A DNA stretch of 53,522 nucleotides from Candidatus Omnitrophota bacterium (GTDB lineage Bacteria; Omnitrophota; Gorgyraeia; Duberdicusellales; 4484-171), in contig CP070684.1 of NCBI GenBank assembly GCA_020352775.1, forward strand, positions 520,421 through 573,942, read 5' to 3'. Numbering within the stretch: the first letter of the stretch is position 1; every line of letters starts with the position of its first letter. The notes under the pieces are model-generated. The model was not told where the DNA came from. It saw only the letters and a program-made list of their open reading frames with translations, and ran no database searches. Made by a program: the position numbers and the translations under genes. Of the stretch, positions 15,633-24,246 are shown one piece after another.

Positions 15633-15671
15633 AGGACAAAGGCGTCCTTATGCCAAAGGGGCGCTTTTTTT
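15633..15671 (+). promoter_or_regulatory. Attenuator A: hexaloop hairpin overlapping an intrinsic terminator
   Basis: Hairpin 1 pairs AGGAC (15633-15637) with GTCCT (15644-15648) around the six-base loop AAAGGC. A second small hairpin pairs TGCC (15651-15654) with GGCG (15660-15663) around AAAGG. The alternative fold pairs AAAGGCGTCC (15638-15647) with GGGCGCTTTT (15659-15668), followed by a T run, which is a good intrinsic terminator. The folds exclude each other. Loop A at position 1 and G at position 4 match the known ANTAR target pattern. I infer ANTAR-dependent readthrough into the gene at 15715. Confidence 0.65.
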
Positions 15672-15714
15672 ATTTTTGCTCCCTTTAAATGAACTACAAA
15701 TTGCAACGTAAACA

Positions 15715-18027: not shown

Positions 18028-19371
<1,344 letters not shown>

Positions 19372-19410: not shown

Positions 19411-19439
19411 TTGACAAATTTAAAATAGTGTGTTATATT
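19411..19439 (+). promoter_or_regulatory. Strong promoter before the gltB-like gene
   Basis: TTGACA (19411-19416), 17-base spacer, TATATT (19434-19439). Predicted start near 19446, followed by about 275 bases of leader holding three attenuator-like elements. This fills the 350-base gap between gdhA and the gltB-like gene. Confidence 0.75.
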
Positions 19440-19447
19440 TCTTCTAC

Positions 19448-19509
19448 GAAACACAAAGGTTGTGTTTCTTGGAAAGGACAAGGACGTTAAAAAAAGACGT
19501 CCTTTTTTT
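19448..19509 (+). promoter_or_regulatory. Attenuator B1: stem-loop plus terminator
   Basis: GAAACAC (19448-19454) pairs with GTGTTTC (19462-19468) around AAAGGTT. Then a weak hairpin, GAC (19477-19479) with GTT (19486-19488), shows the six-base loop AAGGAC. The terminator pairs AAGGACGT (19480-19487) with ACGTCCTT (19497-19504), ending in a T run. The weak hairpin and the terminator share bases 19480-19487 and so exclude each other. Both loops have A first and G fourth, as in ANTAR targets. Confidence 0.55.
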
Positions 19510-19543
19510 ATTTTTAGGTCCTTTCATTCAAAGTTAGAAAACC

Positions 19544-19593
19544 GGATAATGGCGTCCTTTTTGACAGCAAAGACTGTTGGGGGGCGTTTTTTT
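19544..19593 (+). promoter_or_regulatory. Attenuator B2: hexaloop hairpin overlapping a terminator
   Basis: GGAT (19544-19547) pairs with GTCC (19554-19557) around loop AATGGC. A second hairpin pairs TGACAG (19562-19567) with CTGTTG (19574-19579) around CAAAGA. The alternative terminator pairs GGCGTCC (19551-19557) with GGGGCGTT (19582-19588 plus wobble) and ends in seven Ts. It has the same layout as attenuator A. Confidence 0.55.
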
Positions 19594-19639
19594 ATTTAGT
19601 CAATAACTTGCGTTTTTAAGGCGGGTTATTGACACGTTA

Positions 19640-19692
19640 TAGGACGATGGCGTTCTAAGCCTGAACCAAAGGCATGGAACGCTATTTTTTTT
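19640..19692 (+). promoter_or_regulatory. Attenuator B3: hexaloop hairpin overlapping a terminator
   Basis: TAGGAC (19640-19645) pairs with GTTCTA (19652-19657) around loop GATGGC. GCCT (19659-19662) pairs with AGGC (19670-19673). The alternative terminator pairs GCGTTC (19650-19655) with GAACGC (19677-19682), with flanking pairs, and ends in eight Ts. The ribosome site AGGAGG lies only about 20 bases beyond, so this is the last gate before translation of the gltB-like gene. Confidence 0.6.
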
Positions 19693-19721
19693 GAGTCGAT
19701 ATACAGCAAAAGGAGGTAAAA

Positions 19722-21344
19722 ATGAATTTACAACAACCAAACGCAAACGAGGCATTACAAACTGCCAACCGCTCCAGGAGCGTATCGCCCCTATCGGGAA
19801 TTTGCACGCGTTGCATCGACGGCTGCCGGGGAAATTGTGATATTTTCAAGGCAACATTTAGGGGCCGGGAAGTGATTTATCCTGGGCCTTATGGCGCGGT
19901 GACTGCCGGCGGGGATAAGAATTATCCTCTGGATTACTCTCATCTTAACATTCAGGGCTATGCGATGGATGCTAAGGGTCTTCCTGAAGGGGTTGAGGCT
20001 AATCCTGATACTGCTACGTTCCCTGCGGTTGATACCGAAACTGATTATGGCTGGAATAAAAAGGTAAAAATGTGCGTACCTATTTTTACTGGTGCCCTTG
20101 GTTCTACGGAAATTGCACGAAGAAACTGGGAGCATTTTGCAGTGGGTGCTGCGATTTCAGGAATTACTCTGGTTTGCGGAGAAAATGTTTGTGGAATCGA
20201 CCCTAAATTAGAGCTAGATTCCAACGGAAAAATAAAAAAAGCACCTGATATGGATCGTAGAATTGAAGTTTATAAAAGATTCCACGAAGGCTATGGAGAG
20301 ATTTTGGTCCAGATGAACGTTGAAGATACCCGTTTAGGTGTTGCGGAATACGTAAGAAAAAAACATAATCTGGAAACCATTGAACTTAAATGGGGCCAGG
20401 GCGCAAAGTGCATCGGTGGTGAGATTAAGGTTAACACCATTGAACGAGCCCGGGAACTTAAAAAACGCGGTTACATTGTCACCCCCGACCCTACCTTGCA
20501 TTCGGTTCAAGAAGCATACCGGGTAGGGGAAATCAAAGAGTTTGAGCGTCATTCCCGTTTGGGATTTGTAACCGAAGGGGCTTTCTTCGATGAAATCCAA
20601 CGGTTAAGAGATTTAGGCTTTAAGCGCATAACCTTAAAAACCGGAGCTTATCCGATGCGCGAATTAGCCATGGCAATTAAATATTCATCACTTGCAGGAA
20701 TTGATCTTCTTACAGTTGATGGTGCAGGGGGCGGAACAGGAATGAGTCCCTGGAGAATGATGCAAGAGTGGGGTGTGCCTACTTTTTATCTGCAATCCAT
20801 GACTTATGAAATCTGCGAGAAACTTAAGAAAAAAGGCATGCGTGTTCCGGATATTGCCATTGCCGGCGGCTTTTCATCGGAAGACCATGTGTTTAAAGTG
20901 CTTGCAATGGGAGCTCCTTACGTAAAAGCAGTTTGTATGGGGCGCGCACTTATGATTCCGGGTATGGTTGGTAAAAATATCGGGGAATGGATTAAAAACA
21001 ATGATTTGCCTAAAACAGTTTCAACCTATGGCAGCACCCCCGAGGAAATCTTTATCGGATATGAAGAATTAATAGATAAATACGGTAAAGAAATGAAAAA
21101 TATCCCTCTGGGTGCAGTGGGAGTTTACTGCTTCACTCAGAAAATAAAGGTCGGCTTGCAGCAACTTATGGCCGGCAGCAGAAATTTTAGGATAAACAGT
21201 ATTTCAAGAAAAGACCTGATGTGTCTCACTGAAGAAGCAGCAAAGGTATCCGGGATACCTTATGTAATGGATGCTTACCGCAAAGAGGCAGAACAAATTT
21301 TGGACAGCGAAGTGAAAGCTCGGTTTAAAGCTGTAAAACACTAA
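19722..21344 (+). CDS. GltB-like FMN-binding glutamate synthase domain protein
   Basis: A 540-residue protein related to the central FMN domain of glutamate synthase. The FMN/substrate region shows TVDGAGGGTGMSPWRMM and IAGGFSSEDHVFKVLAMGA. It lacks the N-terminal glutaminase domain, and the [3Fe-4S] cysteine cluster that follows the FMN region in classical GltB is not seen. Instead the N-terminus carries CTRCIDGCRGNC (Cys 28, 31, 35, 39), a possible metal or Fe-S site. It may take ammonia from a separate amidotransferase and electrons from the NfnB/GltD-like protein, or do a related reaction. AAAAGGAGGTAAAA precedes the ATG. The long leader with three attenuators suggests tight control. Confidence 0.8.
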   Translation: MNLQQPNANEALQTANRSRSVSPLSGICTRCIDGCRGNCDIFKATFRGREVIYPGPYGAVTAGGDKNYPLDYSHLNIQGYAMDAKGLPEGVEANPDTATFPAVDTETDYGWNKKVKMCVPIFTGALGSTEIARRNWEHFAVGAAISGITLVCGENVCGIDPKLELDSNGKIKKAPDMDRRIEVYKRFHEGYGEILVQMNVEDTRLGVAEYVRKKHNLETIELKWGQGAKCIGGEIKVNTIERARELKKRGYIVTPDPTLHSVQEAYRVGEIKEFERHSRLGFVTEGAFFDEIQRLRDLGFKRITLKTGAYPMRELAMAIKYSSLAGIDLLTVDGAGGGTGMSPWRMMQEWGVPTFYLQSMTYEICEKLKKKGMRVPDIAIAGGFSSEDHVFKVLAMGAPYVKAVCMGRALMIPGMVGKNIGEWIKNNDLPKTVSTYGSTPEEIFIGYEELIDKYGKEMKNIPLGAVGVYCFTQKIKVGLQQLMAGSRNFRINSISRKDLMCLTEEAAKVSGIPYVMDAYRKEAEQILDSEVKARFKAVKH

Positions 21345-23068: not shown

Positions 23069-23773
23069 ATGCCAAAGGCATCTTACAAAGAATATATCAA
23101 TACTCTAAGCAAAATCAGCAAAGCGATCACCTCTGAGCTATACCTGGAGGATGTGCTTAAGCTAATTGTTACCCTTACTGCGAATGTAATGAAGGCCAAG
23201 ATCTGCTCACTCTGGCTTCTGGATAAAAATACAAAAGAACTGAAAATAAGAGCCACTCAAGCCATGGGGCAGGAGTATTTAAAAGAACGCAGCCTCAGAT
23301 TAGGAGAGGGTATCGTGGGATTGGTCGCAAAAGAAAAAAAACCAATTGTGATTCTTGATGTTGTAAAGGATCTTAAATACAAAGAGAAACAGCTTGCAAA
23401 AAAAGAAGGTCTGATTTCGATGTTGAGTGTACCGATGATGGTAAAGAAAAAAGTGGTCGGAGTAATAAACCTTTACACCACCACTCCTTATAAATTCAGC
23501 AAAAGCGATATCGATCTTTTAAGTGCTGTTGCCAATCAGGCTGCGGTGGCAATTGAAAATACTGAGCTGATGGTTAAAACTAGAATTATCCAGGAGGAGC
23601 TAGATACCAGAAAGAAGGTAGAGCGGGCAAAGGGAATATTGATGAACGAGCAAAGCCTGACCGAAGAAGAGGCTTATAATCTTATTCGTAAATCCAGCAT
23701 GAACAAACGTGTTCCTATGAAAGATATTGCCGAGGCCATAATTCTTTCTCATGAAATTAAAGGTAATAAATAA
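23069..23773 (+). CDS. GAF-ANTAR transcription antitermination regulator
   Basis: A 234-residue two-domain protein. Residues about 13-165 form a GAF sensor domain (AKICSLWLLDKNTKELKI, RLGEGIVGLVAKEKKPIVI, SAVANQAAVAIENTELM). Residues about 175-229 form an ANTAR RNA-binding domain, with RKKVERAKGILMNEQSL, EEAYNLIRKSSM and MKDIAEAII. ANTAR proteins such as EutV, AmiR and NasR bind paired hexaloop hairpins and stop terminators from forming. Here no receiver domain or kinase is adjacent, so a small molecule bound by GAF is the likely signal. The nearby leaders at 15633, 19448-19692 and 24084-24246 are candidate targets, linking it to nitrogen control. The ligand is unknown. Confidence 0.9.
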   Translation: MPKASYKEYINTLSKISKAITSELYLEDVLKLIVTLTANVMKAKICSLWLLDKNTKELKIRATQAMGQEYLKERSLRLGEGIVGLVAKEKKPIVILDVVKDLKYKEKQLAKKEGLISMLSVPMMVKKKVVGVINLYTTTPYKFSKSDIDLLSAVANQAAVAIENTELMVKTRIIQEELDTRKKVERAKGILMNEQSLTEEEAYNLIRKSSMNKRVPMKDIAEAIILSHEIKGNK

Positions 23774-24083: not shown

Positions 24084-24160
24084 GAAATATCGTGAATTTC
24101 TACAAAGACAGTGGAAGAAAAAGGCAAAGAAGCCCCCGGTAAAATGACGGGGGTTTTTTT
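24084..24160 (+). promoter_or_regulatory. Attenuator C1: hairpins plus strong intrinsic terminator
   Basis: GAAAT (24084-24088) pairs with ATTTC (24096-24100) around ATCGTGA; TAC (24101-24103) pairs with GTG (24111-24113) around AAAGACA. GGC (24123-24125) pairs with GCC (24132-24134) around the six-base loop AAAGAA. The terminator pairs CCCCCG (24133-24138) with CGGGGG (24148-24153) and ends in seven Ts. The AAAGAA hairpin shares bases with the terminator stem. All three loops have A first and G fourth. Confidence 0.6.
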
Positions 24161-24197
24161 CTGTCAATAAGCATTAGAGTGGATTGATGCATTGAGT

Positions 24198-24246
24198 AGG
24201 ACGATGGCGTCCTTCTTGCTACGGCGCAGTAGAGGGACGCTTTATT
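24198..24246 (+). promoter_or_regulatory. Attenuator C2: hexaloop hairpin overlapping a terminator
   Basis: AGGAC (24198-24202) pairs with GTCCT (24209-24213) around loop GATGGC. CTAC (24219-24222) pairs with GTAG (24229-24232) around GGCGCA. The alternative stem pairs GCGTCC (24207-24212) with GGACGC (24235-24240), followed by TTTATT. The T run is weaker than in the other elements. The AGGAC-GATGGC core is identical to B3. Confidence 0.55.

Follow-up and report, generated by a model that had tools for sequence, protein, structure and literature searches.

RNAs targeted by ANTAR proteins carry recognizable signs, namely A at position 1 (A1) and G at position 4 (G4) of the hairpin loop, tiny stems, a similar but optional hairpin further upstream and an overlap with a terminator (PMC3369931, PMC8934654). 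EutV requires the upstream hairpin, P1 (PMC3369931), and the minimal ANTAR motif has been reduced to a single hexaloop (PMC8934654). The open-access literature describes ANTAR RNAs as pairs of six-base loops, and a 2021 actinobacterial survey kept dual six-base-loop ANTAR RNAs only (PMC8164766). The ANTAR regulon predicted for Desulfotomaculum acetoxidans comprises 13 attenuators over 6 transcription units (PMC3369931). Among RNA-sensing systems, the natural triple-tandem c-di-GMP riboswitch of B. thuringiensis has the lowest background, the largest fold change and the most digital response curve when compared with one or two copies (PMC4759541).

The leader of a gltB-like gene of a Candidatus Omnitrophota bacterium resembles the E. 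faecalis eut leaders controlled by EutV in having A1/G4 loop hairpins, a second hairpin (P2) lying over an intrinsic terminator and, in the candidate regulator, the same ANTAR RNA-contact residues. In contrast to E. faecalis, P1 mostly has a seven-base loop, three gates stand before one gene, the last gate is without P1, and a GAF domain takes the place of the receiver domain of EutV. As in the D. acetoxidans regulon, attenuators outnumber transcription units and nitrogen-metabolism genes are affected, but that regulon belongs to a different phylum and was predicted from dual hexaloops only, and the text consulted describes neither a serial order nor a P1-less gate. The triple riboswitch and the thrZ and trpE tandem T-boxes likewise place two or three complete attenuators before one transcript, but there the RNA itself senses the ligand or tRNA, whereas the candidate effector here is a protein. 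Serial attenuators, ANTAR attenuation, multiple ANTAR attenuators per transcript and tandem T-boxes are thus already known. Relative to the open-access literature, the seven-base P1 loops, the position-fixed P1-less last gate and the conservation of the entire order of three gates in several families of a single phylum appear to be new.

Anatomy of the gltB leader

The window, a stretch of 53,522 nucleotides, contains a leader of 282 bases (19440–19721) between a promoter-like site and the start of the gltB-like gene, whose 540-residue product has the synthase domain only. The promoter-like site, a strong one, lies just 3' of gdhA, which ends at 19371, and judging from this site all three gates are probably downstream of a single start. 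The leader ORFs are merely short overlapping frames, and a leader peptide was rejected as a candidate. The features are as follows.

19411–19439, + strand: promoter-like TTGACA-17-TATATT (11 of 12 matches, extended TG)
19448–19468, + strand: B1 P1, gaaacac[AAAGGTT]gtgtttc, seven-base loop with A1 and G4; stem covaries in homologues
19477–19488, + strand: B1 P2, gac[AAGGAC]gtt, weak 3-bp stem, overlapping terminator 1; the covariance model includes the B1 sequence
19480–19509, + strand: terminator 1, T run 19503–19509 (−10.9 kcal/mol, z −3.1)
19527–19539, + strand: B2 P1, ttc[AAAGTTA]gaa, weak 3-bp stem, seven-base loop; AAGGTTA in relative G001, with positions 1 and 4 kept
19544–19557, + strand: B2 P2, ggat[AATGGC]gtcc, overlaps terminator 2
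19551–19593, + strand: terminator 2, T run 19587–19593 (−15.1 kcal/mol, z −3.5)
19599–19633, + strand: spacer hairpin, long and unlike an ANTAR hairpin, separating gate 2 from gate 3; almost the same in G001
19640–19657, + strand: B3 P2, taggac[GATGGC]gttcta, without an ANTAR-like P1
19646–19692, + strand: terminator 3, T run 19685–19692 (−22.6 kcal/mol, z −6.9)
19722–21344, + strand: gated gene, GltB-type glutamate synthase, 540 aa (Pfam PF01645, 2.1e-14)

The three hairpin-and-T-run terminators that the initial annotation had seen before the gltB-like gene are therefore present at the positions it gave; their z scores were obtained by folding each hairpin alone against dinucleotide shuffles. 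The 5' arm of every terminator is also part of an upstream [A/G]xxGxx hexaloop hairpin, P2. P1 is found upstream in B1 and B2, with linkers to P2 of 8 and 4 nucleotides, respectively. A search for an ANTAR-type P1 of B3 met only the 35-nucleotide spacer hairpin, which has no A1/G4 loop. Since the third gate lacks P1, the three gates are not equivalent.

Some of these hairpins are weak. B1 P2 is not predicted to form when folded alone, and an alternative P2 could form, ttg[GAAAGGA]caa, though with no space for a linker. When folded as a whole, the B2 region is about as stable as its shuffles (z −0.8).

Related units and the candidate regulator

Comparable units precede two other operons or genes of the window, and an ANTAR gene lies nearby.

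15633–15673, + strand: leader A, a lone P1-less unit, aggac[AAAGGC]gtcct with terminator, before nfnAB–gdhA
23069–23773, + strand: GAF-ANTAR regulator, 234 aa (Pfam ANTAR PF03861, 1.7e-20; EutV match, 3.7e-11)
24097–24160, + strand: unit C1, P1 tttctac[AAAGACA]gtggaag, P2 ggc[AAAGAA]gcc, terminator, before carB
24171–24245, + strand: unit C2, P1 gcattag[AGTGGA]ttgatgc, P2 aggac[GATGGC]gtcct, terminator, before carB

The unit of leader A is directly behind its own promoter, and carB is preceded by two serial dual-hairpin ANTAR-type gates, C1 and C2 (24078–24245), directly behind the ANTAR gene. An intrinsic terminator overlaps P2 in all units, and P2 overlaps and excludes the terminator in each of B1, B2, B3, A, C1 and C2. 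A six-base P2 loop with A1 and G4 on a stem of at least 3 bp is present in B1 (AAGGAC), B2 (AATGGC), A (AAAGGC) and C1 (AAAGAA). In B3 and C2 (GATGGC), G4 is present and position 1 is G, not A; G1 and C6 could pair and so close the loop down to four bases. P1 loops with A1/G4 have seven bases in B1, B2 and C1 and six in C2, and P1 is missing from B3 and A. The P1–P2 linkers are 4–8 nucleotides long, as against 5–12 in the dual-hexaloop description. The likeness of B2 and B3 to A and C2 that had been proposed from the letters holds: all four match GGAYRAWGGCGTYC, a pattern written from these four units themselves, and are its sole exact matches in the 1.275-Mb genome. The companion proposal that B1 is closer to C1 is borne out by the AAAGxxx P1 loop and the 3-bp P2 common to both.

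The GAF-ANTAR protein is the only ANTAR protein in the genome (a single genome match). Its gene sits between glnA and the carB leader, 3 kb downstream of the gltB leader. Nine of the 11 EutV RNA contacts are kept (R142, K143, K149, E160, Y164, R168, M172, N173 and R175), and two are altered (K147 to R and R177 to P). The evidence points to this protein as the effector of the three gltB gates. In sequence, its GAF domain comes closest to the GAF domains of EI-Ntr (PtsP) and of NifA-like proteins. Since GAF domains of EI-Ntr bind glutamine (PMC4848567), a nitrogen ligand for the GAF-ANTAR protein is a reasonable guess, no more.

Conservation, covariation and chance controls

The GltB protein has its closest named relatives in Candidatus Omnitrophota metagenome-assembled genomes. 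G001, from another genus of the same family, has the whole three-gate leader with 89% identity, followed by a second ANTAR gene (63% identical to that of the window) and then gltB. In each P1 and P2 loop, positions 1 and 4 are the same in the two leaders and other loop bases vary. On the minus strand of the G001 locus L076 (8236–10875), where the ANTAR gene lies between the three-gate leader and gltB, the gltB DNA is about 87% identical to that of the window. The ANTAR–gltB gene order is found in many relatives, and the position of an ANTAR gene behind an ANTAR-type leader may imply autoregulation.

Among 67 distinct leaders of gltB or ANTAR–gltB, mostly from Omnitrophota, an automatic caller detected units in 44, of which 24 have a single unit, 12 have two and 8 have three, and manual reading of the leader sequences turns several two-unit calls into three. 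About 18 Omnitrophota (ANTAR–)gltB leaders show the same succession of two or three units, and five or more families of the class have multi-gate leaders. The gates always follow one order, with a strong P1 in gate 1 (consensus gcac[AAnGTTA]gtgc), a weak tttc..gaaa P1 near P2 in gate 2, and P2 alone in gate 3. In 14 of 18 leaders, only 0–7 nucleotides separate the last-gate P2 from the T run before it, leaving no room for a P1 at the last gate; longer spacers precede the last gate in the window, G001, L115 and L214. Many single-gate Omnitrophota gltB leaders (L095, L102, L105, L108, L209, L218 and others) carry 3' of the T run, between the attenuator and the gltB start, a recurrent segment like TGCCTAAAAATAAGGCAAAAATTGCATAAAA...AACAA, which is absent from the window leader.

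The P1 stems are paired in 90% of cells and contain 36 two-sided changes against 10.9 in shuffled sets, and the P2 stems contain 22 against 3.9. Since the stem sets were picked by their stem and loop G4, pairing and the invariance of G4 within them are partly built in, and fairer tests are the two-sided changes and an unconstrained loop census. In this census of six-base loops overlapping terminators, made without any letter constraint, A1 and G4 are each found in 33 of 34 loops. G1 loops of the B3 and C2 type appear there as four-base loops because G1 and C6 can pair.

The native leader contains three units of P2 plus terminator; of 400 dinucleotide shuffles, 382 contain none, 18 contain one and none contains more. 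Under a stricter overlap rule, which leaves B1 P2 one base outside, the native leader has two units, a number reached by 2 of 300 shuffles. A stricter scan for P2 plus terminator over 1.37 Mb of related loci gave 55 units, not all distinct since the loci partly overlap, against 1.5 per shuffled set, with 2-mer block shuffles as an approximate control. Over 246 genomes the pattern GGACAAWGRCGTYC was just modestly more frequent than its reversed control, and it was dropped as evidence. The anatomy, the shuffles and the conservation across families together uphold the description of this leader as three attenuators in series before one gene.

A dual-hairpin covariance model of the gate-1 type, R1, has B1 in its training set, so that its match to B1 is not independent. 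Outside the training set, R1 matches in relatives lie before glnA (five), gdhA, gltB, carA, carB, purF, pyrG and ANTAR genes, and also before a recurring gene for a small sigma/LuxR-like regulator. This small regulator, with a weak sigma-70 region 2 and a LuxR-type HTH, stands behind two- or three-gate ANTAR leaders in L268, L274, L275, L291 and L294 and is a candidate downstream nitrogen regulator. Two or three gates are also present in relatives before pyrG, the sigma-like gene and a second gltB type, and one gate is seen in their glnA, carA, purF and gdhA leaders. CarA, PurF, PyrG and GltB-type enzymes carry out glutamine-using reactions. In the genome of the window, R1 found no other clear site, the next match having an E value of 0.28, and B2 and C1/C2 were not detected by the R1-type model at a significant E value. 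A search for P-II proteins (GlnB/GlnK) found none in this genome (G000, assembly 84.6% complete) or in G001; P-II is present in 44 of the 58 genomes searched, the window's own being one of the 58.

Possible mechanism and alternative explanations

The gltB leader is very probably a series of three transcription attenuators under ANTAR control. This reading draws on the observed anatomy, mutual overlap, conservation, covariation, gene context and presence of a regulator, and from these we infer protein binding, the direction of control, the ligand and the steepness of the gltB gates. Transcription would start near 19446, and at each gate the nascent RNA would fold into either the terminator or the short P2 that shares the terminator 5' arm, the terminator winning by default. 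Nitrogen status, with glutamine or 2-oxoglutarate as candidate ligands, would activate the GAF-ANTAR protein, and a dimer of it would bind the hairpin loops, P1 first where present and P2 next. With P2 held by the ANTAR dimer, RNA polymerase would pass the terminator. Full-length gltB mRNA would take three such passes, and leakage would therefore multiply down from gate to gate; by analogy with the triple c-di-GMP riboswitch, the very low background and steep response proposed for three gates are plausible. Leaders A (nfnAB–gdhA) and C (carB) would be under the same GAF-ANTAR protein.

Since no other terminator lies between the end of gdhA and B1, the leader must presumably also stop readthrough of the gdhA transcript. 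This arrangement, together with the weakness of B1 P2 and B2 P1, favours the view that regulation is limited to one or two of the units, the rest being plain terminators that insulate gltB from nfnAB–gdhA readthrough. However, a hairpin obeying the ANTAR loop rule overlaps each terminator, loop positions 1 and 4 are kept in all three units of G001 while other bases change, and the units stand in the same order in other families, which makes plain insulation by some of the units rather unlikely. Serial riboswitches and tandem T-boxes with such gate logic are known (PMC4759541, PMC2494555), and the leader could in principle be an array of metabolite riboswitches or a T-box or leader-peptide attenuator instead of a protein-binding RNA. 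Such a leader would be extremely unlikely here: no Rfam family matches anywhere in the window at E values up to 1, the two tiny hairpins that are conserved fall short of the size of a usual aptamer, and an ANTAR gene travels with the leaders.

The direction of control is not readable from sequence alone, and some ANTAR RNAs are located at ribosome binding sites (PMC3369931). ANTAR binding might accordingly promote termination or act by another route such as translation, but the first two gates lie well 5' of the gltB ribosome binding site, and P2 and the terminator have bases in common, so that holding P2 must prevent the terminator. An effect other than antitermination is therefore very unlikely. 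Within the preferred reading of three serial ANTAR-controlled attenuators, a further, doubtful possibility is a relay, in which a dimer that has loaded at gate 1, on its strong P1, would be handed on to the next gate whenever a new P2 emerges. A relay would account for a last gate that can do without P1 and that, in 14 of 18 homologous leaders, immediately follows the gate-2 T run; the window leader is outside these 14 and has the spacer hairpin there instead. If true, ANTAR antitermination would be processive along one transcript rather than a set of independent switches.

These gates are phylogenetically conserved serial ANTAR-type gates in a phylum without cultured models, and the three-gate layout provides a natural test case for ANTAR proteins acting in series. 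Comparison of the gates within one leader makes the sufficiency of a single hexaloop directly testable, and likewise the passing of a terminator by a dimer that holds one loop at a time. To judge from the genes behind these leaders, RNA antitermination may run a nitrogen regulon that comprises ammonium assimilation and enzymes using glutamine.
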